Source: Lepidurus packardi
Lineage: Eukaryota; Arthropoda; Branchiopoda; Notostraca; Triopsidae
Reading direction: 5' to 3'
Length of the DNA: 64,000 bases
NCBI GenBank assembly: GCA_023053545.1
Contig: JAKZAN010000158.1
Location: forward strand, 19,479-83,478
A program made the position numbers and the translations under genes. The notes beneath the pieces are model-generated. The model was not told the DNA's origin and made no database searches. It was given only the letters and a program-made list of their open reading frames with translations. This document shows positions 37,001 through 64,000 of this stretch, one piece after another. Positions within the stretch are counted from its first letter, which is position 1; every line of letters begins with the position of its first letter.

Positions 37001-37904
37001 TTTAAGGATGTAAGGAAATATTTCAGTCCGTAAGGAATTAATTCAGTCCGTAAGGAATTAATTCAGTCCGTAAGGAATGAATTCAGTCCGTAAGGAATAA
37101 GTTCAGTACGTAATGGATTAATTAAGTCCGTAATGAATTAATTCAGTCCGTATGAAATTAATTCAGTCCGTAAGGAATTAATTCAGTCCGTAAGGAATTA
37201 TTTCAGTCCGTAATTAATTAATTCATTCCTTACGGAATTAATTAAGTCCATAAGGAATTAATTCAGTCTGTAAGGATTTAATTAAGTCCGTAATGAATTT
37301 ATTCAGTCCGTAAGGATTTAATTCAGTCCGTAAGGAATTAATTCAGTCCATAAGGATATAATTTAGTCTGTAAGGATTTAATTAAGTCCGTAATGAATTA
37401 ATTCAGTCCGTAAGGAATAACTTCAGTACGTAAGGAAATAATTCAGTCCGTAATGGATTAATTAAGTCCGTAATGAATTAATTCAGTCCGTAAGGAATTA
37501 ATAAAATCCGTACGGAATTAATAAAATCCGTACGGAATTAATTCAGACCGTAAGGAATTAATTCAGTCCGTAAGGAATTAATTCAGTCCGTAATGAATTA
37601 ATTCTGTCCGTAAGGAATTAATTCATTCCGTAAGGAATTAATTCAGTCCGTAAGGAATTAATTCAGTCCGTAAGGAATTAATTCAGTCCGTAAGGAAATA
37701 TTTCAGTCCGTAAGGAATTAATTCAGTAAGAAAGGAATTCAATCAATCCTAAAGAATTAATTCAGTCCGTAAGGAAATATTTCAGTCCGTAAGGAATTAA
37801 TTCAGTCCGTAAGGAATTAATTAAGTCCGTAAGGAATTAATTCAGTCCGTAAGGAATTAATTCTGTCCGTAAGGATGTATTTCAGCCCGTAAGGTATTAA
37901 TTCA
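34021..37904. repeat. Higher-order tandem repeat, 1942 bp, two copies, with T-rich junction
   Basis: Copy 1 is 34021-35962, copy 2 is 35963-37904, and a partial third continues to about 38100. The mark tctgtaaggatttatttctt occurs at 34361 and 36303, and a variant of it at 35022 and 36964. Pairs are 1942 bp apart between copies and 661 bp apart within each copy. After each mark comes an irregular T-rich stretch ending ttttttttaaggatgtaagg. It is the only place outside the LINE where the 20-bp register is clearly disrupted by sequence not derivable from one or two substitutions. Variant differences such as ccatacgg and aaagattttt are also conserved between copies, so the internal 661-bp duplication came before the 1942-bp one. 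Confidence 0.85.
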
Positions 37905-40900: not shown

Positions 40901-43900
40901 GTCTGTAAGGAATTAATTCAGTCCGTAAGGAATTAATTCAGTCCATAAGGAATTAATTTAGTCTGTAAGGATTTAATTAAGTCCGTAATGAATTAATTCA
41001 GTCCGTAAGGAATAACTTCAGTACGTAAGGAATTAATTCAGTCCGTAATGGATTAATTAATTCCGTAATGAATTAATTCAGTCCGTAAGGAATTAATAAA
41101 ATCCGTACGGAATTAATTCAGACCGTAAGGAATTAATTCAGTCCGTAAGGAATTAATTCAGTCCGTAATGAATTAATTCTGTCCGTAAGGAATTAATTCA
41201 TTCCGTAAGGAATTAATTCAGTCCGTAAGGAATTAATTCAGTCCGTAAGGAATTAATTCAGTCCGTAAGGAAATATTTCAGTCCGTAAGGAATTAATTCA
41301 GTAAGAAAGGAATTCAATCAATCCTAAAGAATTAATTCAGTCCGTAAGGAAATATTTCAGTCCGTAAGGAATTAATTCAGTCCGTAAGGAATTAATTAAG
41401 TCCGTAAGGAATTAATTCAGTCCGTAAGGAATTAATTCTGTCCGTAAGGATGTATTTCAGCCCGTAAGGTATTAATTCAGTCCGTAAGGAATTAATTCAG
41501 TCCGTAATGGATTAATTAAGTCCGTAATGAATTATTTCAGTCCGTAAGGAATTAATTCAGTCCGTAAGGAATTCATTCAGTCCGTAAGGAATTAATTCAG
41601 TAAGAAAGGAATTCAATCAATCCTAAATAATTAATTCAGTCCGTAAGGAGCTAATTCAGTCCGTAAGGAATTAATTCAGTAAGAAAGGAATTCAATCAAT
41701 CCTAAATAATTAATTCAGTCCGTAAGGAGCTAATTCAGTCCGTAAGGAATTAATTCTGTCCGTAAGGAATTAATTCAGTCCGTAAGGAATTATTTCAGTC
41801 CGTAATTAATTCATTCATTCCTTACGGAATTAATTAAGTCCATAAGGAATTAGTTTAGTCTGTAAGGATTTAATTAAGTCCGTAATGAATTACTTCAGTC
41901 CGTAAGGAATAACTTCAGTACGTAAGGAAATAATTCAGTCCGTAATGGATTAATTAAGTCCGTAATGAATTAATTCAGTCCGTTAATAATTAATTCAGTC
42001 CGAAATGAATTAATTCAGTCCGTAAGGTATTAATTCAGTAAGTAAGGTATTAATTCAGTCCGTAAGGAATTAATTCAGTCCGTAAGGAATTAATTCAGTC
42101 CGTAAGGAATTAATTCAGTCCGTAAGGAATTAATTCAGTCCGTAAGGAATTAATTCAGTTAGTAATCGATTAATTAAGTCCGTAATGAATTAATTCAGTC
42201 CGTATGAAATTAATTCAGTCCGTAAGGAATTAATTAAGCAATTAATTATGTCCGTAAGGAATTAATTCAGTCCGTAAGGAATTATTTCAGTCCGTAATTA
42301 ATTAATTCATTCCTTACGGAATTAATTAAGTCCATAAGGAATTAATTCAGTCTGTAAGGATTTAATTAAGTCCGTAATGAATTAATTCAGTCCGTAAGTA
42401 TTTAATTCAGTCCGTAAGGAATTAATTCAGTCCGTAAGGAATTAATTCAGTCCGTAAGGAATTAATTCAGTCCGTAAGGAATTATTTCAGTCCGTAATTA
42501 GTTCATTCATTCCGTAAGGAATTAATAAAATCCGTACGGAATTAATTCAGACCGTAAGGAATTAATTCAGTCCGTAAGGAATTAATTCAGTCCGTAAGGA
42601 ATTAATTCAGTCAGTAAGGAATTAATTCAGTCCGTAAGGAATTAACTCAGTCCGTAAGGAATTAATTCAGTCCGTAAGGAGTTAATTCAGTCTGTAAGGT
42701 ATTAATTCAGTCCATAAGGTATTAATTCAGTCCGTAAGGAATTAATTCAGTCCGTAAGGAATTAATTCAGTCCGTAAGGAATTAATTCAGTCCGTAAGGA
42801 ATTATTTCAGTCCGTAAGGAATTAATTCAGTAAGAAAGGAATTCAATCAATCCTAAAGAATTAATTCAGTCCGTAAGGAAATATTTCAGTCCGTAAGGAA
42901 TTAATTCAATCCGTAAGGAATTAATTCAGTCCGTAAGGAATTAATTCAGTCCGTAAGGTATTAATTCAGTCCGTAAGGTATTATTTTATTCCGTAAGGAA
43001 TTAATTCAGTCCGTAAGGAATTAATTCAGTCCGTAAGGAATAAGTTCAGTACGTAAGGAATTAATTCAGTCCGTAATCGATTAATTAAGTCCGTAATGAA
43101 TTAATTCAGTCCGTAATCGATTAATTAAGTCCGTAATGAATTAATTCAGTCCGTATGAAATTAATTCAGTCCGTAAGGAATTAATTAAGGAATTAATTCA
43201 GTCCGTAAGGAATTAATTCAGTCCGTAAGGAATTGATTCGGTCCGTAAGGATTTAATTCAGTCCGTAAGGTATTAATTCAGTCCGTAAGGAATTAATTCA
43301 GTCCGTAAGGAATTAATTCAGTCCGTAAGGAACTAATTCAGTCCGTAAGGAATTAATTCAGTCCGTAAGGAATTAATTCAATCCGTAAGGAATTAATTCA
43401 GTCCGTAAGGAATTAATTCAGTCCGTAAGGTATTAATTCAGTCCGTAAGGAATTAATTCAGTCCGTAAGGAATTAATTCAGTCCGTAAGGAATTAATTCA
43501 GTCCGTAATCGATTAATTAAGTCCGTAATGAATTAATTCAGTCCGTATGAAATTAATTCAGTCCGTAAGGAATTAATTAAGGAATTAATTCAGTCCGTAA
43601 GGAATTAATTAAGGAATTAATTCAGTCCGTAAGGAATTAATTCAGTCCGTAAGGAATTAATTCGGTCCGTAAGGATTTAATTCAGTCCGTAAGGTATTAA
43701 TTCAGTCCGTAAGGAATTAATTCAGTCCGTAAGGAATTAATTCAGTCCGTAAGGAATTATTTCAGTCCGTAATTAGTTCATTCATTCCGTAAGGAATTAA
43801 TAAAATCCGTACGGAATTAATTCAGACCGTAAGGAATTAATTCAGTCCGTAAGGAATTAATTCAGTCCGTAAGGAATTAATTCAGTCAGTAAGGAATTAA

Positions 43901-46900
43901 TTCAGTCCGTAAGGAATTAATTCAGTCCGTAAGGAATTAATTCAATCCGTAAGGAATTAATTCAGTCCGTAAGGAATTAATTCAGTCCGTAAGGTATTAA
44001 TTCAGTCCGTAAGGAATTAATTCAGTCCGTAAGGAATTAATTCAGTCCGTAAGGAATTAATTCAGTCCGTAATCGATTAATTAAGTCCGTAATGAATTAA
44101 TTCAGTCCGTATGAAATTAATTCAGTCCGTAAGGAATTAATTAAGGAATTAATTCAGTCCGTAAGGAATTAATTAAGGAATTAATTCAGTCCGTAAGGAA
44201 TTAATTCAGTCCGTAAGGAATTAATTCGGTCCGTAAGGATTTAATTCAGTCCGTAAGGTATTAATTCAGTCCGTAAGGAATTAATTCAGTCCGTAAGGAA
44301 TTAATTCAGTCCGTAAGGAATTATTTCAGTCCGTAATTAGTTCATTCATTCCGTAAGGAATTAATAAAATCCGTACGGAATTAATTCAGACCGTAAGGAA
44401 TTAATTCAGTCCGTAAGGAATTAATTCAGTCCGTAAGGAATTAATTCAGTCAGTAAGGAATTAATTCAGTCCGTAAGGTATTAATTCAGTCCGTAAGGTA
44501 TTATTTTATTCCGTAAGGAATTAATTCAGTCCGTAAGGAATTAATTCAGTCCGTAAGGAATAAGTTCAGTACGTAAGGAATTAATTCAGTCCGTAATCGA
44601 TTAATTAAGTCCGTAATGAATTAATTCAGTCCGTAATCGATTAATTAAGTCCGTAATGAATTAATTCAGTCCGTATGAAATTAATTCAGTCCGTAAGGAA
44701 TTAATTAAGGAATTAATTCAGTCCGTAAGGAATTAATTCAGTCCGTAAGGAATTGATTCGGTCCGTAAGGATTTAATTCAGTCCGTAAGGTATTAATTCA
44801 GTCCGTAAGGAATTAATTCAGTCCGTAAGGAATTAATTCAGTCCGTAAGGAACTAATTCAGTCCGTAAGGAATTAATTCAGTCCGTAAGGAATTAATTCA
44901 ATCCGTAAGGAATTAATTCAGTCCGTAAGGAATTAATTCAGTCCGTAAGGTATTAATTCAGTCCGTAAGGAATTAATTCAGTCCGTAAGGAATTAATTCA
45001 GTCCGTAAGGAATTAATTCAGTCCGTAATCGATTAATTAAGTCCGTAATGAATTAATTCAGTCCGTATGAAATTAATTCAGTCCGTAAGGAATTAATTAA
45101 GGAATTAATTCAGTCCGTAAGGATTAATTAAGGAATTAATTCAGTCCGTAAGGAATTAATTCAGTCCGTAAGGAATTAATTCGGTCCGTAAGGATTTAAT
45201 TCAGTCCGTAAGGTATTAATTCAGTCCGTAAGGAATTAATTCAGTCCGTAAGGAATTAATTCAGTCCGTAAGGAATTATTTCAGTCCGTAATTAGTTCAT
45301 TCATTCCGTAAGGAATTAATAAAATCCGTACGGAATTAATTCAGACCGTAAGGAATTAATTCAGTCCGTAAGGAATTAATTCAGTCCGTAAGGAATTAAT
45401 TCAGTCAGTAAGGAATTAATTCAGTCCGTAAGGAATTAACTCAGTCCGTAAGGAATTAATTCAGTCCGTAAGGAGTTAATTCAGTCTGTAAGGTATTAAT
45501 TCAGTCCATAAGGTATTAATTCAGTCCGTAAGGAATTAATTCAGTCCGTAAGGAATTAATTCAGTCCGTAAGGAATTAATTCAGTCCGTAAGGAATTATT
45601 TCAGTCCGTAAGGAATTAATTCAGTAAGAAAGGAATTCAATCAATCCTAAAGAATTAATTCAGTCCGTAAGGAAATATTTCAGTCCGTAAGGAATTAATT
45701 CAATCCGTAAGGAATTAATTCAGTCCGTAAGGAATTAATTCAGTCCGTAAGGTATTAATTCAGTCCGTAAGGTATTATTTTATTCCGTAAGGAATTAATT
45801 CAGTCCGTAAGGAATTAATTCAGTCCGTAAGGAATAAGTTCAGTACGTAAGGAATTAATTCAGTCCGTAATCGATTAATTAAGTCCGTAATGAATTAATT
45901 CAGTCCGTAATCGATTAATTAAGTCCGTAATGAATTAATTCAGTCCGTATGAAATTAATTCAGTCCGTAAGGAATTAATTAAGGAATTAATTCAGTCCGT
46001 AAGGAATTAATTCAGTCCGTAAGGAATTGATTCGGTCCGTAAGGATTTAATTCAGTCCGTAAGGTATTAATTCAGTCCGTAAGGAATTAATTCAGTCCGT
46101 AAGGAATTAATTCAGTCCGTAAGGAACTAATTCAGTCCGTAAGGAATTAATTCAGTCCGTAAGGAATTAATTCAATCCGTAAGGAATTAATTCAGTCCGT
46201 AAGGAATTAATTCAGTCCGTAAGGTATTAATTCAGTCCGTAAGGAATTAATTCAGTCCGTAAGGAATTAATTCAGTCCGTAAGGAATTAATTCAGTCCGT
46301 AATCGATTAATTAAGTCCGTAATGAATTAATTCAGTCCGTATGAAATTAATTCAGTCCGTAAGGAATTAATTAAGGAATTAATTCAGTCCGTAAGGAATT
46401 AATTAAGGAATTAATTCAGTCCGTAAGGAATTAATTCAGTCCGTAAGGAATTAATTCGGTCCGTAAGGATTTAATTCAGTCCGTAAGGTATTAATTCAGT
46501 CCGTAAGGAATTAATTCAGTCCGTAAGGAATTAATTCAGTCCGTAAGGAATTAATTCAGTCCGTAAGGAATAAGTTCAGTACGTAAGGAATTAATTCAGT
46601 TAGTAATCGATTAATTAAGTCCGTAATGAATTAATTCAGTCCGTATGAAATTAATTCAGTCCGTAAGGAATTAATTAAGCAATTAATTCAGTCCGTATGA
46701 AATTAATTCAGTCCGTAAGGAATTAATTAAGGAATTAATTCAGTCCATAAGGAATTAATTCAGTCTGTAAGGATTTAATTAAGTCCGTAATGAATTAATT
46801 CAGTCCGTAAGGATTTAATTCAGTCCGTAAGGAATTAATTCAGTCCGTAAGGAATTAATTCAGTCCGTAAGGAATTAATTCAGTCCGTAAGGAAATATTT

Positions 46901-47460
46901 CAGTCCGTAAGGAATTAATTCAGTAAGAAAGGAATTCAATGAATCCTAAAGAATTAATTCAGTCCGTAAGGAAATATTTCAGTCCGTACGGAATTAATTC
47001 AGTCCGTAAGGGATTAATTCAGTAAGTAAGGAATTAATTAAGTCCGTAAGGAATTAATTCAGTCCATAAGGAATTAATTCAGTCCGTAAGGAAATATTTC
47101 ATTCCGTAAGGAATTAAGTCAGTCCGTAAGGAATTAATTCAGTCCGTAAGGAATTAATTCAGTCCGTAAGGAATAAGTTCAGAACGTAAGGAATTAATTC
47201 AGTCCGTAATGAATTAATTCAGTCCGTAATGGATTAATTAAGTCCGTAATGAATTAATTCAGTCCGTATGAAATTAATTCAGTCCGTAAGGAATTCATTC
47301 AGTCCGTAAGGAATTAATTCAGTCCGTAAGGAATTAATTCAGTCTGTAAGGAATTAATTCAGTCCGTAAGGAATTAATTCAGTCTGTAAGGAATTAATTC
47401 AGTCCGTAAGGAATTAATTCAGTCCATAAGGAATTAATTTAGTCTGTAAGGATTTAATTA
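37346..47460. repeat. Approximately 3.6-kb higher-order repeat with nested expansion
   Basis: Variants from about 37346 recur 3575-3636 bp downstream: gcccgtaaggtatt at 37885 and 41460, gtccgttaataatt at 38363 and 41978, and ttattccgta at 39351 and 42987. The offset drifts by 20-bp steps as monomers were gained or lost. The tail of copy 1 (about 40140-40960, with gtccgtacgg and gggattaatt) matches about 46560-47460 rather than the segment directly after 43.7 kb. Copy 2 therefore seems to have expanded internally. Within that expansion the mark aattagttcattcattccg occurs at 42496, 43771, 44335 and 45290. Confidence 0.65.
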
Positions 47461-49339
47461 AGTCCGTAATGAATTAATTCAGTCCGTAAGGAACTAATTC
47501 AGTAAGAAAGGAATTAATTCAGTCCGTAAGGAAATATTTCAGTCCGTAAGGAAATATTTCAGTCCGTACGGAATTAATTCAGTCCGTAAGGAATTAATTC
47601 AGTCCGTAAGGAATTAATTAAGTCCGTAAGGAATTAATTCAGTCCATAAGGAATTAATTCTGTCCGTAAGGATGTAATTCAGTCCGTAAGGTATTAATTC
47701 AGTCCGTAAGGAATTAATTCAGTCCGTAAGGAATTAATTCATTCCGTAAGGAATAAGCTCAGTAAGTAAGGAATTCATTCAGTCCGTAATGGATTAATTA
47801 AGTCCGTAATGAATTAATTCAGTCCGTAAGGAATTAATAAAATCCGTACGGAATTAATTCAGACCGTAAGGAATTAATTCCGTCCGTTAGGAATTAATTC
47901 AGTCCGTAAGGAATTAATTCAGTCCGTAAGGAATTAATTCAGTCCGTAAGGAATTAATTCAGTCCGTAAGGAATTATTTCAGTCCGTAAGGAATTAATTC
48001 AGTAAGAAAGGAATTCAATCAATTCATAAGGAATTAATTCAGTCTGTAAGGATTTAATTAAGTCCGTAATGAATTAATTCAGTCCGTAAGTAATTAATTC
48101 AGTCCGTAAGGAATTAATTCAGTCCGTAAGGAATTAATTCAGTCCGTAAGGAATAAGTTCAGTACGTAAGGAATTAATTCAGTCCGTAATGGATTAATTA
48201 AGTCCGTAATGAATTAATTCAGTCCGTATGAAATTAATTCAGTCCGTAAGGAATTCATTTAGTCCGTAAGGAATTAATTCAGTAAGAAAGGAATTCAATC
48301 AATCCTAAAGAATTAATTCAGTCCGTAAGAAACTAATTCAGTCCGTAAGGAATTAATTCTGTCCGTAAGGAATTAATTCAGTCCGTAAGGAATTAATTCA
48401 GTCCGTAATGGATTAATTAAGTCCGTATGAAATTAATTCAGTCCGTAAGGAATTAATTCAGTAAGAAATAAATTAATTAAGTCCGTAAGGAATTAATTCA
48501 GTCTGTAAGGAATTAATTCAGTCCGTAAGGAAATATTTCAGTCCGTAAGGAATTAATTCAGTCCGTAAGGAATTAATTCAGTCCGTAAGGAATTAATTCA
48601 GTCCGTAAGGAATAAGTTCAGTACGTAAGGAATTAATTCAGTCCGTAATGGATTAATTAAGTCCGTAATGAATTAATTCAGTCCGTATGAAATTAATTCA
48701 GTCCGTAAGGAATTCAGTTAGTCCGTAAGAAATTAATTCAGTAAGAAAGGAATTCAATCAATCCTAAAGAATTAATTCAGTCCGTAAGAAACTAATTCAG
48801 TCCGTAATGAATTAATTCAGTCCGTATGAAATTAATTCAGTCCGTAAGGAATTAATTCAGTCTGTAAGGAATTAATTCAGTCAGTAAGGAATTAATTCAG
48901 TCCGTAAGGAATTAATTCAGTCCGTAAGGAATTAATTCAGTCCGTAAGGAATTAATTCAGTCCGTAAGGAATTATTTCAGTCCGTAATTAATTCATTCAT
49001 TCCTTACGGAATTAATTAAGTCCATAAGGAATTAATTTAGTCTGTAAGGATTTAATTAAGTCCGTAATGAATTAATTCAGTCCGTTAGGAATAACTTGAG
49101 TACGTAAGGAAATAATTCAGTCCGTAATGGATTAATTAAGTCCGTAATGAATTAATTCAGTCCGTAAGGAATTAATTCAGTCCGTAAGGAATTAATTCAG
49201 TCCGTAAGGAATTAATTCAGTCAGTAAGGAATTAATTCAGTCCGTAAGGAATTAATTCAGTCCGTAAGGAATTAATTCAGTCTGTAAGGTATTAATTCAG
49301 TCCATAAGGTATTAATTCAGTCCGTAAGGAATTAATTCA
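37905..49339. repeat. 20-bp satellite array, domain E
   Basis: Satellite with atcgatt monomers, short ggaattaattaagg fusions, aattgattcggtccg, and ttattttattccg variants. It is built of large nested HORs (given separately). From about 46.9 to 49.3 kb the array mixes gtccgtacgg, gtaagaaagg, aagctcagtaagtaagg and gtctgtaagg monomers, which lead into the LINE-bearing block. Near 47761-47780 there is a gaattcattcagtcc monomer that differs by one base from the later LINE target gaattcattgagtcc. No gene or foreign insertion is visible. Confidence 0.95.
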
Positions 49340-49787
49340 GTCCATAAGGAATTAATTCAGTCTGTAAGGATTTAATTAAGTCCGTAATGAATTAATTCAG
49401 TCCGTAAGGATTTAATTCAGTCCGTAAGGAATTAATTCAGTCCGTAAGGAATTAATTCAGTGCGTAAGGAATTAATTCAGTCCGTAAGGAAATATTTCAG
49501 TCCGTAAGGAATTAATTCAGTAAGAAAGGAATTCAATCAATCCTAAAGAATTAATTCAGTCCGTAAGGAAATATTTCAGTCCGTACGGAATTAATTCAGT
49601 CCGTAAGGAATTAATTCAGTCCGTAAGGAATTAATTAAGTCCGTAAGGAATTAATTCAGTCCATAAGGAATTAATTCTGTCCGCAAGGATGTAATTCAGT
49701 CCGTAAGGTATTAATTCAGTCCGTAAGGAATTAATTCAGTCCGTAAGGAATTAATTCAGTCCGTAAGGAATAAGCTCAGTAAGTAAG

Positions 49788-49801
49788 GAATTCATTGAGT
49801 C
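49788..49801 (+). repeat. Target-site duplication, left, LINE copy 1
   Basis: gaattcattgagtc directly precedes the element and is repeated exactly after its poly(A) tail. It is satellite sequence, found uninterrupted elsewhere in the window. The last base could instead belong to the element, giving 13 bp. Confidence 0.9.
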
Positions 49802-50061
49802 GATGTTACCTTCACAAAATTAAAAAAATAGATAAGCCTATCTGCCCCTGTTCCGATCACACTAAACAAGATTTACAACATATATTTTTCCACTGTAGAT
49901 GGCTAAACAAAATAAGAGCAGTACTACTAAGGGAACTTTCCAAATTAAAGATACATTTTAATGCAAACCTTTTCCTTTGCAATCCCAAAGCCTTCCCGGC
50001 AATAGTTTCTTTTGTTAACAACGCAACTTACCTCCTCAAAGAAGCTAGAGCCATTTTATAG
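49802..50061 (+). pseudogene. C-terminal fragment of LINE ORF2 (reverse transcriptase), copy 1
   Basis: The frame stays open from the satellite into the element and ends at TAG. The apparent start is a TTG at 49795 in satellite DNA. Its first two codons are satellite and the third straddles the junction, so it is not a real start. The element contributes about 85 residues from Cys4. A C-x-C-x9-H-x4-C motif (Cys17, Cys19, His29, Cys34 in that numbering), in the context CPC...LQHIFFHC, matches the Cys/His knuckle found at the extreme C terminus of insect Jockey-, I- and R1-like ORF2 proteins, after the polymerase and any RNase H domain. A basic, leucine-rich tail follows (RAVLLRELSKL). Catalytic regions are absent, so the fragment is inert. 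Confidence 0.85.
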
Positions 50062-50125
50062 TTCGCTATAATTGGCCCAATGTAATAAGTCCTATACCAA
50101 AATATGTATGTACTTAGAACTTTAA

Positions 50126-50154
50126 GCCAGCAAAGAGCAAACGCTCACGCTGGT
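50126..50154 (+). other. 3' UTR stem-loop of LINE copy 1
   Basis: gccagc (50126-50131) pairs with gctggt (50149-50154), with one G-U pair. Inside it, gagc (50135-50138) pairs with gctc (50143-50146) around the loop aaac. The structure sits 9 bases before the tail region. 3'-terminal hairpins are used by the reverse transcriptase to recognise template RNA in several LINE families; that role is inferred here. Confidence 0.6.
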
Positions 50155-50160
50155 AGTATA

Positions 50161-50162
50161 AA

Positions 50163-50166
<4 letters not shown>
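50161..50166 (+). promoter_or_regulatory. Polyadenylation signal AATAAA, LINE copy 1
   Basis: AATAAA overlaps the start of the A tail, directly after tagtat. A signal this close to the tail is typical of LINE-encoded 3' ends. The last A residues of the hexamer cannot be told apart from the tail. Confidence 0.5.

Positions 50167-50190
<24 letters not shown>
50164..50190 (+). repeat. Poly(A) tail, 27 A, LINE copy 1
   Basis: Uninterrupted run of 27 A between the 3' UTR and the right-hand target-site duplication. It shows an RNA intermediate and fixes the element on the + strand. Confidence 0.95.
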
Positions 50191-50193
<3 letters not shown>

Positions 50194-50204
50194 TTCATTG
50201 AGTC
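50191..50204 (+). repeat. Target-site duplication, right, LINE copy 1
   Basis: gaattcattgagtc follows the poly(A) tail and continues into the normal satellite monomer cgtaatggattaattaag, restoring the register of the uninterrupted sites. Confidence 0.9.
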
Positions 50205-53200
50205 CGTAATGGATTAATTAAGTCCGTAATGAATTAATTCAGTCCGTAAGGAATTAATAAAATCCGTACGGAATTAATTCAGACCGTAAGGAATTAATTC
50301 AGTCCGTAAGGAATTAATTCAGTCCGTAAGGAATTAATTCAGTCCGTAAGGAATTAATTCAGTCCGTAAGGAATTAATTCAGTCCGTAAGGAATTATTTC
50401 AGTCCGAAATTAATTCATTCATTCCTTACGGAATTAATTAAATCCATAAGGAATTAATTTAGTCTGTAAGGATTTAATTAAGTCCGTAATGAATTAATTC
50501 AGTCCGTTAGGAATAACTTCAGTACGTAAGGAAATAATTCAGTCCGTAATGGATTAATTAAGTCCGTAATGAATTAATTCAGTCCGTAAGGAATTAATTC
50601 AGTCCGTAAGGAATTAATTCAGTCCGTAAGGAATTAATTCAGTCCGTAAGGAATTAATTCAGTCCGTAAGGAATTAATTCAGTCTGTAAGGTATTAATTC
50701 AGTCCATAAGTTATTAATTCAGTCCGTAAGGAATTAATTCAGTCCATAAGGAATTAATTCAGTCTGTAAGGATTTAATTAAGTCCGTAATGAATTAATTC
50801 AGTCCCTAAGGATTTAATTCAGTCCGTAAGGAATTAATTCAGTCCGTAAGGAATTAATTCAGTCTGTAAGGAATTAATTCAGTCAGTAAGGAATTAATTC
50901 AGTCCGTAAGGAATTAATTCAGTCCGTAAGGAATTAATTCAGTCCGTAAGGAATTAATTCAGTCCGTAAGGAATAAGCTCAGTAAGTAAGGAATTCATTG
51001 AGTCCGTAATGGATTAATTAAGTCCGTAATGAATTAATTCAGTCCGTAAGGAATTAATAAAATCCGTACGGAATTAATTCAGACCGTAAGGAATTAATTC
51101 AGTCCGTAAGGAATTCATTCAGTCCGTAAGGAATTAATTCAGTCCGTAAGGAATTAATTCAGTCCGTAAGGAATTAATTCAGTCCGTAAGGAATTATTTC
51201 AGTCCGTAATTAATTCATTCATTCCTTACGGAATTAATTAAATCCATAAGGAATTAATTTAGTCTGTAAGGATTTAATTAAGTCCGTAATGAATTAATTC
51301 AGTCCGTTAGGAATAACTTCAGTACGTAAGGAAATAATTCAGTCCGTAATGGATTAATTAAGTCCGTAATGAATTAATTCAGTCCGTAAGGAATTAATTC
51401 AGTCCGTAAGGAATTAATTCAGTCCGTAAGGAATTAATTCAGTCAGTAAGGAATTAATTCAGTCCGTAAGGAATTAATTCAGTCCGTAAGGAATTAATTC
51501 AGTCCGTAAGGAATTAATTCAGTCTGTAAGGTATTAATTCAGTCCATAAGGTATTAATTCAGTCCGTAAGGAATTAATTCAGTCCATAAGGAATTAATTC
51601 AGTCTGTAAGGATTTAATTAAGTCCGTAATGAATTAATTCAGTCCGTAAGGATTTAATTCAGTCCGTAAGGAATTAATTCAGTCCGTAAGGAATTAATTC
51701 AGTGCGTAAGGAATTAATTCAGTCCGTAAGGAAATATTTCAGTCCGTAAGGAATTAATTCAGTAAGAAAGGAATTCAATCAATCCTAAAGAATTAATTCA
51801 GTCCGTAAGGAAATATTTCAGTCCGTACGGAATTAATTCAGTCCGTAAGGAATTAATTCAGTCCGTAAGGAATTAATTAAGTCCGTAAGGAATTAATTCA
51901 GTCCATAAGGAATTAATTCTGTCCGCAAGGATGTAATTCAGTCCGTAAGGTATTAATTCAGTCCGTAAGGAATTAATTCAGTCCGTAAGGAATTAATACA
52001 GTCCGTAAGGAATAAGCTCAGTAAGTAAGGAATTCATTGAGTCCGTAATGGATTAATTAAGTCCGTAATGAATTAATTCAGTCCGTAAGGAATTAATAAA
52101 ATCCGTACGGAATTAATTCAGACCGTAAGGAATTAATTCAGTCCGTAAGGAATTCATTCAGTCCGTAAGTAATTAATTCAGTCCGTAAGGAATTAATTCA
52201 GTCCGTAAGGAATTAATTCAGTCCGTAAGGAATTAATTCAGTCCGTAAATAAATAATTCATTCCGTAAGGAATTATTTCAGTCCGTAAGGAATTAATTCA
52301 GTAAGAAAGGAATTCAATCAATCCTAAAGAATTAATTCAGTCCGTAAGGAAATATTTCAGTCCGTAAGGAATTAATTCAGTCCGTAAGGAATTAATTCAG
52401 TCCGTAAGGAATTAATTCAGTCCGTAAGGAATAAGTTCAGTACGTAAGGAATTAATTTAGTCCGTAATGGATTAATTAAGTCCGTAATGAATTAATTCAG
52501 TCCGTATGAAATTAATTCAGTCCGTAAGGAATTCATTTAGTCCGTAAGGAATTAATTTAGTAAGAAAGGAATTCAATCAATCCTAAAGAATTAATTCAGT
52601 CCGTAAGAAACTAATTCAGTCCGTAAGGAATTAATTCTGTCCGTAAGGAATTAATTCAGTCCGTAAGGAATTAATTCAGTCCGTAATGGATTAATTAAGT
52701 CCGTAATGAATTAATTCAGTCCGTATGAAATTAATTCAGTCCGTAAGGAATTCATTCAGTCCGTAAGGAATTAATTCAGTAAGAAATGAATTAATTAACG
52801 CCGTAAGGAATTAATTCAGTCTGTAAGGATTTAATTAAGTCCATAAGGAATTAATTCAGTCTGTAAGGATTTAATTAAGTCCGTAATGAATTAATTCAGT
52901 CCGTAAGGATTTAATTCAGTCCGTAAGGAATTAATTCAGTCCGTAAGGAATTAATTCAGTGCGTAAGGAATTAATTCAGTCCGTAAGGAAATATTTCAGT
53001 CCGTAAGGAATTAATTCAGTAAGAAAGGAATTCAATCAATCCTAAAGAATTAATTCAGTCCGTAAGGAAATATTTCAGTCCGTACGGAATTAATTCAGTC
53101 CGTAAGGAATTAATTCAGTCCGTAAGGAATTAATTAAGTCCGTAAGGAATTAATTCAGTCCATAAGGAATTAATTCTGTCCGCAAGGATGTAATTCAGTC

Positions 53201-53286
53201 CGTAAGGTATTAATTCAGTCCGTAAGGAATTAATTCAGTCCGTAAGGAATTAATTCAGTCCGTAAGGAATAAGCTCAGTAAGTAAG
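50205..53286. repeat. 20-bp satellite between the two LINE copies
   Basis: Pure satellite of the 49.6-60.6 kb variant family (gtccgcaaggatg, gtccataagg, gtctgtaaggtatt, gtccgttaggaataactt). It includes uninterrupted LINE target sites at 50991 and 52030. The segment 51582-52043 aligns monomer for monomer with 49340-49801, 448 bp from gtccataagg to the target in both cases, so it is a LINE-free sister of the insertion site. Contains no gene. Confidence 0.95.
52030..52043 (+). repeat. Empty (pre-insertion) LINE target site
   Basis: gaattcattgagtc occurs here once, uninterrupted, in the same neighbour context as the insertion site. It gives the ancestral state and confirms the exact ends of the element. 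Other empty sites start at 50991, 54492, 55451, 57768, 58548 and 60707. Confidence 0.9.
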
Positions 53287-53300
53287 GAATTCATTGAGTC
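53287..53300 (+). repeat. Target-site duplication, left, LINE copy 2
   Basis: gaattcattgagtc, identical to the copy 1 duplication and in the same satellite context. This shows the second element copy came from duplication of the block, not from a second insertion. Confidence 0.9.
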
Positions 53301-53560
53301 GATGTTACCTTCACAAAATTAAAAAAATAGATAAGCCTATCTGCCCCTGTTCCGATCACACTAAACAAGATTTACAACATATATTTTTCCACTGTAGATG
53401 GCTAAACAAAATAAGAGCAGTACTACTAAGGGAACTTTCCAAATTAAAGATACATTTTAATGCAAACCTTTTCCTTTGCAATCCCAAAGCCTTCCCGGCA
53501 ATAGTTTCTTTTGTTAACAACGCAACTTACCTCCTCAAAGAAGCTAGAGCCATTTTATAG
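53301..53560 (+). pseudogene. C-terminal fragment of LINE ORF2 (reverse transcriptase), copy 2
   Basis: Identical in translation to the copy 1 fragment, with the same C-x-C-x9-H-x4-C motif and TAG stop (53558-53560). The seeming TTG start at 53294 again lies in the satellite target-site duplication. No stop or frameshift has arisen in either copy since duplication. That reflects recency rather than selection, because the protein lacks all catalytic domains. Confidence 0.85.
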
Positions 53561-53624
53561 TTCGCTATAATTGGCCCAATGTAATAAGTCCTATACCAAA
53601 ATATGTATGTACTTAGAACTTTAA

Positions 53625-53653
53625 GCCAGCAAAGAGCAAACGCTCACGCTGGT
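53625..53653 (+). other. 3' UTR stem-loop of LINE copy 2
   Basis: Same two-tier hairpin as copy 1: outer gccagc/gctggt, inner gagc/gctc, loop aaac. Confidence 0.6.
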
Positions 53654-53659
53654 AGTATA

Positions 53660-53660
53660 A

Positions 53661-53665
<5 letters not shown>
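53660..53665 (+). promoter_or_regulatory. Polyadenylation signal AATAAA, LINE copy 2
   Basis: Same position relative to the tail as in copy 1. Part of the hexamer may be tail sequence. Confidence 0.5.

Positions 53666-53691
<26 letters not shown>
53663..53691 (+). repeat. Poly(A) tail, 29 A, LINE copy 2
   Basis: Uninterrupted run of 29 A, two longer than in copy 1 and the only difference seen between the two elements. Confidence 0.95.
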
Positions 53692-53693
<2 letters not shown>

Positions 53694-53705
53694 ATTCATT
53701 GAGTC
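53692..53705 (+). repeat. Target-site duplication, right, LINE copy 2
   Basis: gaattcattgagtc after the tail, continuing into cgtaatggattaattaag as at the copy 1 site. Confidence 0.9.
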
Positions 53706-56238
53706 CGTAATGGATTAATTAAGTCCGTAATGAATTAATTCAGTCCGTAAGGAATTAATAAAATCCGTACGGAATTAATTCAGACCGTAAGGAATTAATT
53801 CAGTCCGTAAGGAATTAATTCAGTCCGTAAGGAATTAATTCAGTCCGTAAGGAATTAATTCAGTCCGTAAGGAATTAATTCAGTCCGTAAGGAATTATTT
53901 CAGTCCGAAATTAATTCATTCATTCCTTACGGAATTAATTAAATCCATAAGGAATTAATTTAGTCTGTAAGGATTTAATTAAGTCCGTAATGAATTAATT
54001 CAGTCCGTTAGGAATAACTTCAGTACGTAAGGAAATAATTCAGTCCGTAATGGATTAATTAAGTCCGTAATGAATTAATTCAGTCCGTAAGGAATTAGTT
54101 CAGTCCGTAAGGAATTAATTCAGTCCGTAAGGAATTAATTCAGTCCGTAAGGAATTAATTCAGTCCGTAAGGAATTAATTCAGTCTGTAAGGTATTAATT
54201 CAGTCCATAAGTTATTAATTCAGTCCGTAAGGAATTAATTCAGTCCATAAGGAATTAATTCAGTCTGTAAGGATTTAATTAAGTCCGTAATGAATTAATT
54301 CAGTCCCTAAGGATTTAATTCAGTCCGTAAGGAATTAATTCAGTCCGTAAGGAATTAATTCAGTCTGTAAGGAATTAATTCAGTCAGTAAGGAATTAATT
54401 CAGTCCGTAAGGAATTAATTCAGTCCGTAAGGAATTAATTCAGTCCGTAAGGAATTAATTCAGTCCGTAAGGAATAAGCTCAGTAAGTAAGGAATTCATT
54501 GAGTCCGTAATGGATTAATTAAGTCCGTAATGAATTAATTCAGTCCGTAAGGAATTAATAAAATCCGTACGGAATTAATTCAGACCGTAAGGAATTAATT
54601 CAGTCCGTAAGGAATTCATTCAGTCCGTAAGGAATTAATTCAGTCCGTAAGGAATTAATTCAGTCCGTAAGGAATTAATTCAGTCCGTAAGGAATTATTT
54701 CAGTCCGTAATTAATTCATTCATTCCTTACGGAATTAATTAAATCCATAAGGAATTAATTTAGTCTGTAAGGATTTAATTAAGTCCGTAATGAATTAATT
54801 CAGTCCGTTAGGAATAACTTCAGTACGTAAGGAAATAATTCAGTCCGTAATGGATTAATTAAGTCCGTAATGAATTAATTCAGTCCGTAAGGAATTAATT
54901 CAGTCCGTAAGGAATTAATTCAGTCCGTAAGGAATTAATTCAGTCAGTAAGGAATTAATTCAGTCCGTAAGGAATTAATTCAGTCTGTAAGGTATTAATT
55001 CAGTCCATAAGGTATTAATTCAGTCCGTAAGGAATTAATTCAGTCCATAAGGAATTAATTCAGTCTGTAAGGATTTAATTAAGTCCGTAATGAATTAATT
55101 CAGTCCGTAAGGATTTAATTCAGTCCGTAAGGAATTAATTCAGTCCGTAAGGAATTAATTCAGTGCGTAAGGAATTAATTCAGTCCGTAAGGAAATATTT
55201 CAGTCCGTAAGGAATTAATTCAGTAAGAAAGGAATTCAATCAATCCTAAAGAATTAATTCAGTCCGTAAGGAAATATTTCAGTCCGTACGGAATTAATTC
55301 AGTCCGTAAGGAATTAATTCAGTCCGTAAGGAATTAATTCTGTCCGCAAGGATGTAATTCAGTCCGTAAGGTATTAATTCAGTCCGTAAGGAATTAATTC
55401 AGTCCGTAAGGAATTAATACAGTCCGTAAGGAATAAGCTCAGTAAGTAAGGAATTCATTGAGTCCGTAATGGATTAATTAAGTCCGTAATGAATTAATTC
55501 AGTCCGTAAGGAATTAATAAAATCCGTACGGAATTAATTCAGACCGTAAGGAATTAATTCAGTCCGTAAGGAATTCATTCAGTCCGTAAGTAATTAATTC
55601 AGTCCGTAAGGAATTAATTCAGTCCGTAAGGAATTAATTCAGTCCGTAAGGAATTAATTCAGTCCGTAAATAAATAATTCATTCCGTAAGGAATTATTTC
55701 AGTCCGTAAGGAATTAATTCAGTAAGAAAGGAATTCAATCAATCCTAAAGAATTAATTCAGTCCGTAAGGAAATATTTCAGTCCGTAAGGAATTAATTCA
55801 GTCCGTAAGGAATTAATTCAGTCCGTAAGGAATTAATTCAGTCCGTAAGGAATAAGTTCAGTACGTAAGGAATTAATTTAGTCCGTAATGGATTAATTAA
55901 GTCCGTAATGAATTAATTCAGTCCGTATGAAATTAATTCAGTCCGTAAGGAATTCATTTAGTCCGTAAGGAATTAATTTAGTAAGAAAGGAATTCAATCA
56001 ATCCTAAAGAATTAATTCAGTCCGTAAGAAACTAATTCAGTCCGTAAGGAATTAATTCTGTCCGTAAGGAATTAATTCAGTCCGTAAGGAATTAATTCAG
56101 TCCGTAATGGATTAATTAAGTCCGTAATGAATTAATTCAGTCCGTATGAAATTAATTCAGTCCGTAAGGAATTCATTCAGTCCGTAAGGAATTAATTCAG
56201 TAAGAAATGAATTAATTAACGCCGTAAGGAATTAATTC
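53706..56238. repeat. 20-bp satellite, remainder of duplicated block copy 2
   Basis: Satellite of the same variant family, shorter than its counterpart by two 40-bp losses. Contains empty target sites at 54492 and 55451 and no gene. Confidence 0.95.
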
Positions 56239-59200
56239 AATCTGTAAGGAATTAATTCAGTCCGTAAGGAATTAATTCAGTCCGTAAGGAATTAATTAAG
56301 TCCGTAAGGAATTAATTCAGTCCGTAAGGAATTAATTCAATCCGTAAGGAATTAATTCAGTCCGTAAGGAATTAATTCAGTCCGTAAGGAATTATTTCAG
56401 TCCGTAATTAATTCATTCATTCCTTACGGAATTAATTAAGTCCATAAGGAATTAATTTAGTCTGTAAGGATTTAATTAAGTCCGTAATGAATTAATTCAG
56501 TCCGTTAGGAATAACTTCAGTACGTAAGGAAATAATTCAGTCCGTAATGGATTAATTAAGTCCGTATGAATTAATTCAGTCCGTAAGGAATTAATTCAGT
56601 CCGTAAGGAATTAATTCAGTCCGTAAGGAATTAATTCAGTCAGTACGGAATTAATTCAGTCCGTAAGGAATTAATTCAGTCCTTAAGGAATTAATTCAAT
56701 CCGTAAGGAATTAATTCAGTCTGTAAGGTATTAATTCAGTCCATAAGGTATTAATTCAGTCCGTAAGGAATTAATTCAGTCCATAAGGAATTAATTCAGT
56801 CTGTAAGGATTTAATTAAGTCCGTAATGAATTAATTCAGTCCGTAAGGATTTAATTCAGTCCGTAAGGAATTAATTCAGTCCGTAAGTAATTAATTCAGT
56901 GCGTAAGGAATTAATTCAGTCCGTAAGGAAATATTTCAGTCCGTAAGGAATTAATTCAGTCCATAAGGAATTAATTCTGTCCGCAAGGATGTAATTCAGT
57001 CCGTAAGGTATTAATTCAGTCCGTAAGGAATTAATTCAGTCCGTAAGGAATTAATTCAGTCGGTAAGGAATTAATAAAATCCGTACGGAATTAATTCAGA
57101 CCGTAAGGAATTAATTCAGTCCGTAAGGAATTCATTCAGTCCGTATGGAATTAATTCAGTCCGTAAGGAATTAATTCAGTCCGTAAGGAATTAATTCAGT
57201 CCGTAAGGAATTATTTCAGTCCGTAATTAATTCATTCATTCCTTACGGAATTAATTAAATCCATAAGGAATTAATTTAGTCTGTAAGGATTTAATTAAGT
57301 CCGTAATGAATTAATTCAGTCCGTTAGGAATAACTTCAGTACGTAAGGAAATAATTCAGTCCGTAATGGATTAATTAAGTCCGTAATGAATTAATTCAGT
57401 CCGTAAGGAATTAATTCAGTCCGTAAGGAATTAATTCAGTCCGTAAGGAATTAATTCAGTCAGTAAGGAATTAATTCAGTCCGTAAGGAATTAATTCAGT
57501 CCGTAAGAAATTAATTCAGTCCGTAAGGAATTAATTCAGTCTGTAAGATATTAATTCAGTCCATGAGGTATTAATTCAGTCCGTAAGGAATTAATTCAGT
57601 CCATAAGGCATTAATTCAGTCTGTAAGGATTTAATTAAGTCCGTAATGAATTAATTCAGTCCGTAAGGATTTAATTCAGTCCGTAAGGAATTAATTCAGT
57701 CCGTAAGGAATTAATTCAGTCCGTAAGGAATTAATTCAGTCCGTAAGGAATAAGCTCAGTAAGTAAGGAATTCATTGAGTCCGTAATGGATTATTTAAGT
57801 CCGTAATGAATTAATTCAGTCCGTAAGGAATTAATAAAATCCGTACGGAATTAATTCAAACCGTAAGGAATTAATTCAGTCCGTAAGGAATTCATTCAGT
57901 CCGTAAGGAATTAATTCAGTCCGTAAGGAATTAATTCAGTCCGTAAGGAATTAATTCAGTCCGTAAGGAATTATTTCAGTCCGTAATTAATTCATTCATT
58001 CCTTACGGAATTAATTAAATCCATAAGGAATTAATTTAGTCTGTAAGGATTTAATTAACTCCGTAATGAATTAATTCAGTCCGTTAGGAATAACTTCAGT
58101 ACGTAAGGAAATAATTCAGTCCGTAATGGATTAATTAAGTCCGTAATGAATTAATTCAGTCCGTAAGGAATTAATTCAGTCCGTAAGGAATTAATTCAGT
58201 CAGTAAGGAATTAATTCAGTCCGTAAGGAATTAATTCAGTCCGTAAGGAATTAATTCAGTCCGTAAGGAATTAATTCAGTCTGTAAGGTATTAATTCAGT
58301 CCATGAGGTATTAATTCAGTCCGTAAGGAATTAATTCAGTCCATAAGGAATTAATTCAGCCTGTAAGGATTTAATTAAGTCCGTAAGGAATTAATTCAGT
58401 CCGTAAGGAATTAATTCAGTCCATAAGGAATTAATTCTGTCCGCAAGGATGTAATTCAGTCCGTAAGGTATTAATTCAGTCCGTAAGGAATTAATTCAGT
58501 CCGTAAGGAATTAATTCAGTCCGTAAGGAATAAGCTCAGTAAGTAAGGAATTCATTGAGTCCGTAATGGATTAATTAAGTCCGTAATGAATTAATTCAGT
58601 CCGTAAGGAATTAATAAAATCCGTACGGAATTAATTCAGACCGTAAGGAATTAATTCAGTCCGTAAGGAATTAATTCAGTCCGTAAGGAATTAATTCAGT
58701 CCGTAAGGAATTATTTCAGTCCGTAATTAATTCATTCATTCCTTACGGAAATAATTAAATCCATAAGGAATTAATTTAGTCTGTAAAGATTTAATTAAGT
58801 CCGTAATGAATTAATTCAGTCCGTTAGGAATAACTTCAGTACGTAAGGAAATAATTCAGTCCGTAATGGATTAATTAAGTCCGTAATGAATTAATTCAGT
58901 CCGTAAGGAATTAATTCAGTCCGTAAGGAATTAATTCAGTCCGTAAGGAATTAATTCAGTCAGTAAGGAATTAATTCAGTCCGTAAGGAATTAATTCAGT
59001 CCGTAAGGAATTAATTCAGTCCGTAAGGAATTAATTCAGTCTGTAAGGTATTAATTCAGTCCATAAGGTATTAATTCAGTCCGTAAGGAATAAGCTCAGT
59101 AAGTAAGTAATTCATTGAGTCCGTAATGGATTAATTAAGTCCGTAATGAATTAATTCAGTCCGTAAGGAATTAATAAAATCCGTACGGAATTAATTCAGA

Positions 59201-62200
59201 CCGTAAGGAATTAATTCATTCCGTAAGGAATTCATTCAGTCCGTAAGGAATTAATTCAGTCCGTAAGGAATTAATTCAGTCCGTAAGGAATTAATTCAGT
59301 CCGTAAGGAATTATTTCAGTCCGTAATTAATTCATTCATTCCTTACGGAATTAATTAAATCCATAAGGAAATAATTTAGTCTGTAAGGATTTAATTAAGT
59401 CCGTAATGAATTAATTCAGTCCGTTAGGAATAACTTCAGTACGTAAGGAAATAATTCAGTCCGTAATGGATTAATTAAGTCCGTAATGAATTAATTCAGT
59501 CCGTAAGGAATTAATTCAGTCCGTAAGGAATTAATTCAGTCCGTAAGGAATTAATTCAGTCAGTAAGGAATTAATTCAGTCCGTAAGGAATTAATTCAGT
59601 CCGTAAGGAATTAATTCAGTCCGTAAGGAATTAATTCAGTCTGTAAGGTATTAATTCAGTCCGTAAGGAATTAATTCAGTCCGTAAGGAATTAATTCAGT
59701 CCATAAGGAATTCATTCAGTCCGTAAGGATGTAATTCAGTCCGTAAGGTATTAATTCAGTCCGTAAGGAATTAATTCAGTCCGTAAGGAATTATTTCAGT
59801 CCGTAATTAATTCATTCATTCCTTACGGAATTAATTAAATCCATAAGGAATTAATTTAGTCTGTAAGGATTTAATTAAGTCCGTAATGAATTAATTCAGT
59901 CCGTTAGGAATAACTTCAGTACGTAAGGAAATAATTCAGTCCGTAATGGATTAATTAAGTCCGTAATGAATTAATTCAGTCCGTAAGGAATTAATTCAGT
60001 CCGTAAGGAATTAATTCAGTCCGTAAGGAATTAATTCAGTCCGTAAGGAATTAATTCAGTCAGTAAGGAATTAATTCAGTCCGTAAGGAATTAATTCAGT
60101 CCGTAAGGAATTAATTCAGTCCGTAATGAATTAATTCAGTCCGTAAGGAATTAATTCAGTCCGTAAGGAATTAATTCAGTCCGTAAGGAATTAATTCAGT
60201 CCGTAAGGAATTAATTCAGTCAGTAAGGAATTAATTCAGTCCGTAAGGAATTAATTCAGTCCATAAGGAATTAATTCAGTCTGTAAGGATTTAATTAAGT
60301 CCGTAATGAATTAATTCAGTCCGTAAGGATTTAATTCAGTCCGTAAGGAAATAATTCAGTCCGTAAGGAATTAATTCAGTGCGTAAGGAATTAATTCAGT
60401 CCGTAAGGAAATATTTCAGTCCGTAAGGAATTAATTCAGTAAGAAAGGAATTCAATCAATCCTAAAGAATTAATTCAGTCCGTAAGGAAATATTTCAGTC
60501 CGTACGGAATTAATTCAGTCCGTAAGGAATTAATTCAGTCCGAAAGGAATTAATTAAGTCCGTAAGGAATTAATTCAGTCCATAAGGAATTAATTCTGTC
60601 CGCAAGGATGTAATTCAGTCCGTAAGGTATTAATTCAGTCCGTAAGGAATTAATTCAGTCCGTAAGGAATTAATTCAGTCCGTAAGGAATAAGCTCAGTA
60701 AGTAAGGAATTCATTGAGTCCGTAATGGATTAATTAAGTCCGTAATGAATTAATTCAGTCCGTAAGGAATTAATAAAATCCGTACGGAATTAATTCAGAC
60801 CGTAAGGAATTCATTCAGTCCGTAAGGAATTAATTCAGTCCGTAAGGAATTAATTCAGTCCGTAAGGAATTAATTCAGTCCGTAAGGAATTATTTCAGTC
60901 CGTAATGAATTAATTCAGTCCGTAATGAATTAATTCAGTCCGTATGAAATTAATTCAGTCCGTAATGAATTAATTCAGTCCGTAATGGATTAATTTAGTC
61001 CGTAATGAATTAATTCAGTCCGTTAGGAATTAATTCAGTCCGTAAGGAATTAATTCAGTCCGTAAGGAATTAATTCAGTCCGTAAGGAATTAATTCAATC
61101 CGTAAGGAATTAATTCAGTCCGTAAGGAATTAATTCAGTCCGTAAGGTATTACTTCAGTCCGTAAGGTATTAATTCAGTCCGTAAGCAATTAATTCAGTC
61201 CGTAAGGAATTAATTCAGTCCGTAAGGAATTAATTCAGTCCGTAAGGAATAAGTTCAGTACGTAAGGAATTAATTCAGTCCGTAATGGATTAATTAAGTC
61301 CGTAATGAATTAATTCAGTCCGTATGAAATTAATTCAGTCCGTAAGGAATTCATTCAGTCCGTAAGGAATTAATTCAGTAAGAAAGGAATTGATTAAGTC
61401 CGTAAGGAATTAATTAAGTCCGTAAGGAATTAATTCAGTCCGTAATGAATTAATTCAGTCCGTAATGGATTAATTTAGTCCGTAATGAATTAATTCAGTC
61501 CGTATGAAATTAATTCAGTACGTAAGGAATTAATTAAGTAAGAAAGGAATTAATTAAGTCCGTAAGGAATTAATTCAGTCCGTAAGGAATTGATTAAGTC
61601 CCTAAGGAATTAATTAAGTCCGTAAGGAATTAAATCAGTCCGTAATGAATTAATTCAGTCCGTAATGGATTAATTTAGTCCGTAATGAATTAATTCAGTC
61701 CGTATGAAATTAATTCAGTACGTAAGGAATTAATTCAGTAAGAAAGGAATTAATTAAGTCCGTAAGGAATTAATTCAGTCCGTAAGGAATTAATTCAGTA
61801 GGTAAGGAATTAATTCAGTCCGTAAGGAATTAATACAGTCCGTAAGTAATTAATTCAGTCCGTAAGGAATTAATTCAATCCGTAAGGAATTAATTCAGTC
61901 CGTAAGGAATTAATTCAGTCCGTAAGGTATTAATTCAGTCCGTAAGGTATTAATTCAGTCCGTAAGCAATTAATTCAGTCCGTAAGGAATTAATTCAGTC
62001 CGTAAGGAATTAATTCAGTCCATAAGGAATAAGTTCAGTACGTAAGGAATTAATTCAGTCCGTAATCGATTAATTAAGTCCGTAATGAATTAATTCAGTC
62101 CGTATGAAATTAATTCAGTCCGTAAGGAATTAATTAAGGAATTAATTCAGTCCGTAAGGAATTAATTCAGTCCGTAAGGAATTAATTCGGTCCGTAAGGA

Positions 62201-64000
62201 TTTAATTCAGTCCGTAAGGTATTAATTCAGTCCGTAAGGAATTAACTCAGTCCGTAAGGAATTAATTCAGTCCGTAAGGAATTAATTCAGTCCGTAAGGA
62301 ATTAATTCAGTCCGTAAGGAATTAATTCAATCCGTAAGGAATTAATTCAGTCCGTAAGGAATTAATTCAGTCCGTAAGGTATTAATTCAGTCCGTAAGGT
62401 ATTAATTCAGTCCGTAAGGAATTAATTCAGTCCGTAAGGAATTCATTCAGTCCGTAAGGAATTAATTCAGTCCGTAAGGAATAAGTTCAGTACGTAAGGA
62501 ATTAATTCAGTCCGTAATCGATTAATTAAGTCCGTAATTAATTAATTCAGTCCGTATGAAATTAATTCAGTCCGTAAGGAATTAATTAAGCAATTAATTC
62601 TGTCCGTAAGGAATTAATTCAGTCCGTAAGGAATTATTTTATCCCGTAATTAATTAATTCATTCCTTACGGAATTAATTAAGTCCATAAGGAATTAATTC
62701 AGTCTGTAAGGATTTCATTAAGTCCGTAATGAATTAATTCAGTCCGTAAGGAATTAATTCAGTCCGTAAGGAATTAATTCAGTCCGTAAGGATTTAATTC
62801 AGTCCGTAAGGAATTAATTCAGTCCGTAAGGAATTAATTCAGTCCGTAAGGAATTAATTCAGTCCGTAAGGAATTAATTCAGTCCGTAAGGAATAAGTTC
62901 AGTACGTAAGGAATTAATTCAGTTAGTAATCGATTAATTAAGTCCGTAATTAATTAATTCAGTCCGTATGAAATTAATTTAGTCCGTAAGGAATTAATTA
63001 AGCAATTAATTCTGTCCGTAAGGAATTAATTCAGTCCGTAAGGAAATATTTTAGTCCGTAATTAATTAATTCATTCCTTACGGAATTAATTAAGTCCATA
63101 AGGAATTAATTCAGTCTGTAAGGATTTAATTAAGTCCGTAATGAATTAATTCAGTCCGTAAGGAATTAAATCAGTCCATAAGGAATTAATTCAGTCTGTA
63201 AGGATTTAATTCAGTCCGTAAGGAATTAATTCAGTCCGTAAGGAATTAATTCAGTCCGTAAGGAATTAATTCAGTCCGTAAGGAAATATTTCAGTCCGTA
63301 AGGAATTAATTCAGTAAGAAAGGAATTCAATCAATCCTAAAGAATTAATTCAGTCCGTAAGGAAATATTTCAGTCCGTACGGAATTAATTCAGTCCGTAA
63401 GGAATTTATTCAGTCCGTAAGGAATTAATTAAGTCCGTAAGGAATTAATTCAGTCCATAAGGAATTAATTCTGTCCGTAAGGATGTAATTCAGTCCGTAA
63501 TGAATTAATTCAGTCCGTAAGGAATTAATTCAGTCCTTAAGGAATTAATTCAGTCCGTAAGGAATAAGCTCAGTAAGTAAGGAATTCATTCAGTCCGTAA
63601 TGGATTAATTAAGTCCGTAATGAATTAATTCAGTCCGTAAGGAATTAATAAAATCCGTACGGAATTAATTCAGACCGTAAGGAATTAATTCAGTCCGTAA
63701 TCGATTAATGAAGTCCGTAATGAATTAATTCAGTCCGTAAGGAATTAATTCAGTCCGTAAGGAATTATTTCAGTCCGTAAGGAATTAATTCAGTAAGAAA
63801 GGAATTCAATCAATCCATAAGGAATTAATTCAGTCTGTAAGGATTTAATTAAGTCCGTAATGAATTAATTCAGTCCGTAAGGAATTAATTCAGTCCGTAA
63901 GGAATTAATTCAGTCCGTAATGAATTAATTCAGTCCGTAAGGAATTAATTCAGTCCTTAAGGAATTAATTCAGTCCGTAAGGAATAAGCTCAGTAAGTAA
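56239..64000. repeat. 20-bp satellite array, domain G
   Basis: Satellite continuing to the end of the window. From 56.2 to 60.7 kb the blocks resemble the LINE-bearing block but lack the element, with empty sites at 57768, 58548 and 60707. A related site near 59101 reads aagtaagtaattcattgag. From about 60.9 kb the family changes: gtccgtaatggattaattta with gtaagaaagg (61.4-61.8 kb), then atcgatt monomers and aagcaattaattctg fusions (62.0-63.1 kb) that resemble domains C and E. Near the end a block with gtccttaagg and aagctcagtaagtaa recurs 420 bp apart (63493 and 63913). No gene is visible. Confidence 0.95.

Follow-up and report, generated by a model that had tools for sequence, protein, structure and literature searches.

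A 64-kb stretch of the Lepidurus packardi genome, referred to here as the window (positions 19479-83478 of the 83,478-bp contig C147, in an assembly of 108.6 Mb and 344 contigs), is an array of a 20-bp satellite that carries two copies of the 3' end of a long interspersed nuclear element (LINE). The two copies very probably derive from a single LINE insertion that was subsequently duplicated in tandem as part of a larger block including the flanking satellite units. The insertion is placed before the duplication because the truncation point, the target-site duplication (TSD) and the flanks are common to both copies. Satellite arrays are hard to date, as every unit resembles its neighbours; an insertion endowed with a TSD, a truncation point and empty neighbours orders two events and bounds a recent duplication, providing an instructive case and a practical marker. 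Retrotransposition followed by array duplication is a textbook mechanism, and the case is unusually clean rather than an example of a new one.

The two fragments are the only non-satellite runs in C147: when all 83,478 bases were screened for sequence departing from the monomer, window positions 49803-50163 and 53303-53663 were returned and nothing else, so the pair is not a chance finding. The element starts, 49802 and 53301, are offset by 3499 bp, and from there the copies are identical for 389 bases (362 of element and 27 A); identity also covers the adjoining flanks, over 463 bases on the upstream side and, past the A-run, over 406 bases on the downstream side. The presence of both an A-tail (27 or 29 A) and a 14-bp TSD is as for target-primed reverse transcription. 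The reading frame from 49804, compared with the ORF2 (open reading frame 2) end of the family member L038, displays a C-x-C...H...C arrangement within its 85 residues, and the 362-bp element is identical to the 3' ends of the copies on contigs C36, C68, and C247. The initial annotation had proposed one retrotransposition followed by later satellite amplification, on the grounds of a common 5' truncation point, a common 14-bp TSD and equivalent neighbours 3499 bp apart. All these features were recovered, and inspection for differing truncation points or TSDs, which it had regarded as evidence to the contrary, found them identical in both copies; together with the 463 bp of upstream identity and the LINE-free units described below, they support the proposed succession. 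Its statement that the copies differ only by 27 versus 29 A is correct as regards the elements, whereas the blocks differ by one substitution and two 40-bp gaps besides. Similarly, the LINE fragment is not the unique-sequence tag that had been envisaged, being present in 15 near-full copies genome-wide, whereas the 5' junction (TSD plus element start) does function as a unique tag, present twice: a search of the assembly allowing up to 2 mismatches placed it at these two sites and nowhere else. Coordinates are collected in Table 1.

Table 1. Features of the window (window coordinates)
Feature	Position	Strand	Remarks
20-bp satellite array, consensus GTCCGTAAGGAATTAATTCA	1..64000	+	Tandem Repeats Finder (TRF) 1-63985, period 20; whole window except the two LINE fragments
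Block A of the tandem duplication, holding LINE copy 1	49339..52818	+	3480 bp
5' TSD, copy 1, GAATTCATTGAGTC	49788..49801	+	
5'-truncated LINE 3' end, copy 1: C-terminal 85 residues of ORF2, then 3' untranslated region	49802..50163	+	Aligned to longer family members
A-run, copy 1, 27 A	50164..50190	+	
3' TSD, copy 1	50191..50204	+	
Empty target unit, no LINE	50991..51004	+	
Other six empty target units (start positions)	52030, 54492, 55451, 57768, 58548, 60707		
Junction linker between blocks A and B	52819..52837	+	19 bp
Block B of the tandem duplication, holding LINE copy 2, lacking two 40-bp stretches of A	52838..56239	+	3402 bp
5' TSD, copy 2	53287..53300	+	
5'-truncated LINE 3' end, copy 2, identical to copy 1	53301..53662	+	
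A-run, copy 2, 29 A	53663..53691	+	
3' TSD, copy 2	53692..53705	+	

The LINE could conceivably have inserted twice, independently, at matching positions in two blocks of a satellite that offers several equivalent target units. However, the truncation point and the TSD are identical in both copies, while the truncation points differ among the other truncated copies that were read (L033 on C36, L035 on C3, and L037 on C247); on account of the former identity, this explanation is rejected as exceedingly improbable. The TSD itself begins with G (window 49785-49805 and 50185-50195). In four of the six other distinct insertions whose TSD was resolved (L033, L036, L037, and L040/L041), it begins with AA after T, which is not the case for L035 and L039; L034 and L038, which gave only chance satellite matches, were left out of this comparison. 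The usual AA pattern could be accommodated by a 17-base duplication that begins with AAGG and lacks one G on its right side; being common to both LINE copies, this state predates the block duplication.

The blocks surrounding the two copies are direct, near-adjacent, and collinear. Aligned against each other, as the initial annotation had suggested, they are near-identical, with 3400 of 3401 aligned bases in agreement, flanks included (the alignment extends one base beyond the block ends 49339-52818 and 52838-56239). The sole substitution is A at 50597 and G at 54098; block B has two additional A in its A-run and lacks two 40-bp stretches of two monomers each, located near 51446 and 51866 of block A. 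An additional 18-bp alignment gap at 52819 corresponds to junction sequence outside the repeat. Since the longer form of the second 40-bp stretch is also found to the left of both LINE copies (at about 49630 and 53130), this stretch was probably lost from B rather than gained by A; the direction of change is less clear for the first one because unit numbers there vary between neighbours. The near-identity also bears on gene conversion, by which the LINE-bearing stretch would have been carried into a pre-existing neighbouring block. The similarly arranged satellite units around both copies would suit such a transfer, but it is very unlikely, considering that near-identity fills the whole 3.48 kb and ends on both sides at the block ends, which would call for a 3.48-kb tract terminating exactly there. 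The boundary between A and B is a novel join with respect to C147 and the 7 kb of contig C255 that were read: in C147 the 20-base join string at 52829 has a single occurrence, and it is absent from the 7 kb of C255, the string not having been searched genome-wide.

The array also retains target units devoid of the LINE. Of the 11 occurrences of the motif GAATTCATTGAGTC in the window, four are the two LINE-flanking pairs and seven lie in LINE-free units in which the bases are present once; genome-wide, with up to 1 mismatch, the empty unit is found at 26 places (10 in C147, 12 in C255, and 4 in C235). C255 and the left flank of LINE copy 1 agree base for base over the 540 bp that end at the insertion point, beyond which C255 is satellite without any LINE. 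This match passes the start of block A, whereas to the left of copy 2 it covers 463 bp only, down to the start of block B; therefore, the A/B join is the derived one. C255 was considered as a simple pre-insertion allele and ruled out, as its right flank is closer to another unit of the window (50991). Rather, it is a LINE-free relative of the insertion site that has been rearranged, not its plain earlier state, and is a candidate for the other haplotype or for a sister part of the array.

Some observations weigh against a single insertion followed by block duplication. The right flank of C255 is an exact match to the unit at 50991 for 546 bp, while against the right flank of the LINE itself it is exact for 111 bp and has 5 mismatches in 500. 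Moreover, the presence of two copies on one chromosome is read from the assembled sequence, and the single substitution and the length of the A-run could be sequencing errors. The same concern underlies the possibility of a false duplication, in which the assembler would have wrongly joined in tandem two haplotypes or one locus. The differences between A and B (one substitution, unit-length indels, and A-run length) are of the kind found between haplotypes, and near-identical array variants are kept as separate contigs, as C255 shows. Conversely, the window contains no N, the A/B join has its own linker sequence, the LINE-free C255 could itself be the other haplotype, and LINE-free near-identical self-pairs occur elsewhere in C147, all of which render an assembly artefact unlikely.

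Under the favoured sequence of events, insertion and then tandem duplication, a single event of target-primed reverse transcription would have placed a 5'-truncated LINE 3' end in one 20-bp satellite unit. Later, a block of about 3.48 kb comprising the insertion and neighbouring units would have been duplicated in tandem, possibly through out-of-register exchange or break-induced replication, leaving both copies presumably on one chromosome. Afterwards, the copies would have come apart through a pair of 2-monomer stretches (which B has probably lost), a single substitution and two A. If mutation proceeds at 5e-9 to 2e-9 per base per generation, rates that are assumed, not measured, that one change among 3401 columns translates into roughly 29,000-74,000 generations (95% range from less than 1000 to about 410,000), with the proviso that the single difference may be a sequencing error.

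The satellite is the only repeat family detected in the window, and extrapolating how densely a 43-base pattern occurs in C147 puts its total amount at an estimated 5.7 Mb, or 5.3% of the assembly. The description of the array as otherwise unmappable proved too strong: counted inside C147, unique words make up 90% of all 1001-mers and 98% of all 2001-mers, so that most of the array should be within reach of long-read mapping. A fixed higher-order period was sought and rejected, with the commonest offset accounting for 6 of 1136 exact self-pairs of at least 120 bp and no offset being dominant. Block doublings are nonetheless a habit of this array, since the LINE-bearing pair (span 3480 bp) ranks only second among the near-identical self-pairs chained in C147. 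The longest one lies to the left of the window (C147:2236-6853 and 7296-11973; 4618 bp at offset 5060), includes a 2763-bp exact run, and contains no LINE. The satellite may be pericentromeric or subtelomeric. Eleven scaffold ends were read over 400 bases, with 120 bases inspected from either side of each reading: this 20-bp satellite is found at the end of C1 and at the starts of C2 and C4, and a different AAATTTC-rich repeat at the starts of C3 and C6; the start of C5 consists of N, and the start of C1 and the ends of C2, C4, C5, and C6 carry neither repeat. Apart from these eleven, TTAGG repeats, which fit an arthropod, close C3.

The LINE belongs to a young family. The fragment has 37 matches in the genome, 15 of which are near-full (at least 309 of 358 query bases, 96-100% identity). 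Nine family loci (L033-L041) were read with long flanks and aligned by a restricted comparison, as plain BLAST was swamped by satellite matches; the longest relatives align over about 4.7 kb. An open ORF2 frame of 1082 codons is present at six of the nine loci, and at five of these six it is accompanied by an ORF1 frame of 342-365 codons. In L034, ORF2 is broken; this locus was left out of the pairwise difference counts, as an indel puts its comparison out of register. In L033 and L035, truncation has left a few hundred bases. By Pfam, L038 encodes RVT_1, Exo_endo_phos_2, and zf-CCHC, namely a reverse transcriptase, an endonuclease, and a zinc knuckle, and its layout (endonuclease and reverse transcriptase in ORF2, zinc knuckle in ORF1) fits the TRAS/SART type. 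TRAS1, a member of the R1 clade, was the only convincing match of the ORF2 endonuclease among solved structures (E 7e-6; the other two rows had E 0.85 and 0.99), which hints at a placement of the family in this clade.

Counting C147 once and C45/C47 once, the 15 near-full places correspond to 13 insertions. Judged from monomer 10-mers and from the 8-mer diversity of the flanks, four lie in this satellite (C147, C68, C69, and C45/C47), three in other tandem repeats (C247, C36, and C89), and six in non-repeat sequence (C1, C3 twice, C6 twice, and C58). The members at C36:327700-337500 and C89:84700-93500 are found in another tandem repeat, rich in AACTGGTTT. The member on C58 is apparently split, with query bases 1-309 at C58:63215-63523 and 304-358 at C58:68213-68267 on the same strand, about 4.7 kb apart, as if something had inserted between them. 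Given the 5.3% share of the satellite, four of 13 has a binomial chance of 0.004, a value that ignores selection and incomplete assembly and concerns a family chosen after the window had been seen, with no other LINE family counted; it is a hint of enrichment in the satellite. A site-specific LINE with one fixed target sequence was ruled out, as target sites vary and six of 13 insertions are in non-repeat sequence. Of the four insertions in this satellite, two occur in duplicate (C147 twice; C45 and C47), and it might be tentatively proposed, though on balance it is doubtful, that the family prefers tandem-repeat arrays and multiplies there partly without transposing, via duplication of array blocks.

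The second doubled insertion is found at L040 (C45) and L041 (C47), which carry the same near-full-length element with a common TSD AACTAATTCCGTAAG, 5' end, and tail of 17 A. Over about 4.74 kb, 12 substitutions and one 3-base gap separate the two elements. Their right flanks stay collinear over about 2.1 kb, in which 5 substitutions and several indels occur, while the left flanks agree for 65 bases only and then diverge; the pair could represent either an older duplication or two rearranged haplotypes. Separately, a search for COX1 retrieved many COX1-like pieces with in-frame TGA on C1, C2, C4, C5, C6, C21, and C38, which are probably mitochondrial copies in the nucleus, and three long stop-free matches on C52, C214, and C43, which are perhaps bacterial contigs.

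No report of this satellite or of this insertion turned up in the literature searched, and nothing wider is claimed. In PMC8997354, which cites Smith 1976, out-of-register events are described as duplicating or deleting runs of tandem repeats and building higher-order units. The duplication in C147 is of the same type as the amplification of repeat runs by unequal exchange or break-induced replication outlined there, with the difference that the duplicated stretch carries a non-satellite tag, which makes a single event traceable. The nearest published setting found is the Rsp satellite of Drosophila melanogaster, in which, according to PMC12871663, islands of G5, a Jockey-type element without long terminal repeats (non-LTR), are interspersed in the array, as non-LTR elements are in both systems; the proximal cluster of G5 is missing from one strain, and two G5 elements are distinguishable by a digest. 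Rsp has 120-bp units and another LINE, whereas here a 14-bp TSD and a truncation point tie the copies together. Khost et al. are said to have reported in 2017 that the G5 clusters arose by duplication of one insertion. A further parallel is G2/Jockey-3 of Drosophila centromeres, which, as given in PMC6516634, has about 63% of its copies in candidate centromere contigs; both are recently active LINE families in repeat-rich contigs, but here four of 13 near-full insertions are in the 20-bp satellite, for which a centromere mark is not known. Lastly, compared with the telomere-targeted TRAS/SART LINEs (PMC7265360 and PMC2868851), the present family resembles them in its TRAS1-matching endonuclease and in having some insertions in tandem repeats, and differs from them in having no fixed target, with TSDs that vary and six of 13 insertions in non-repeat sequence.

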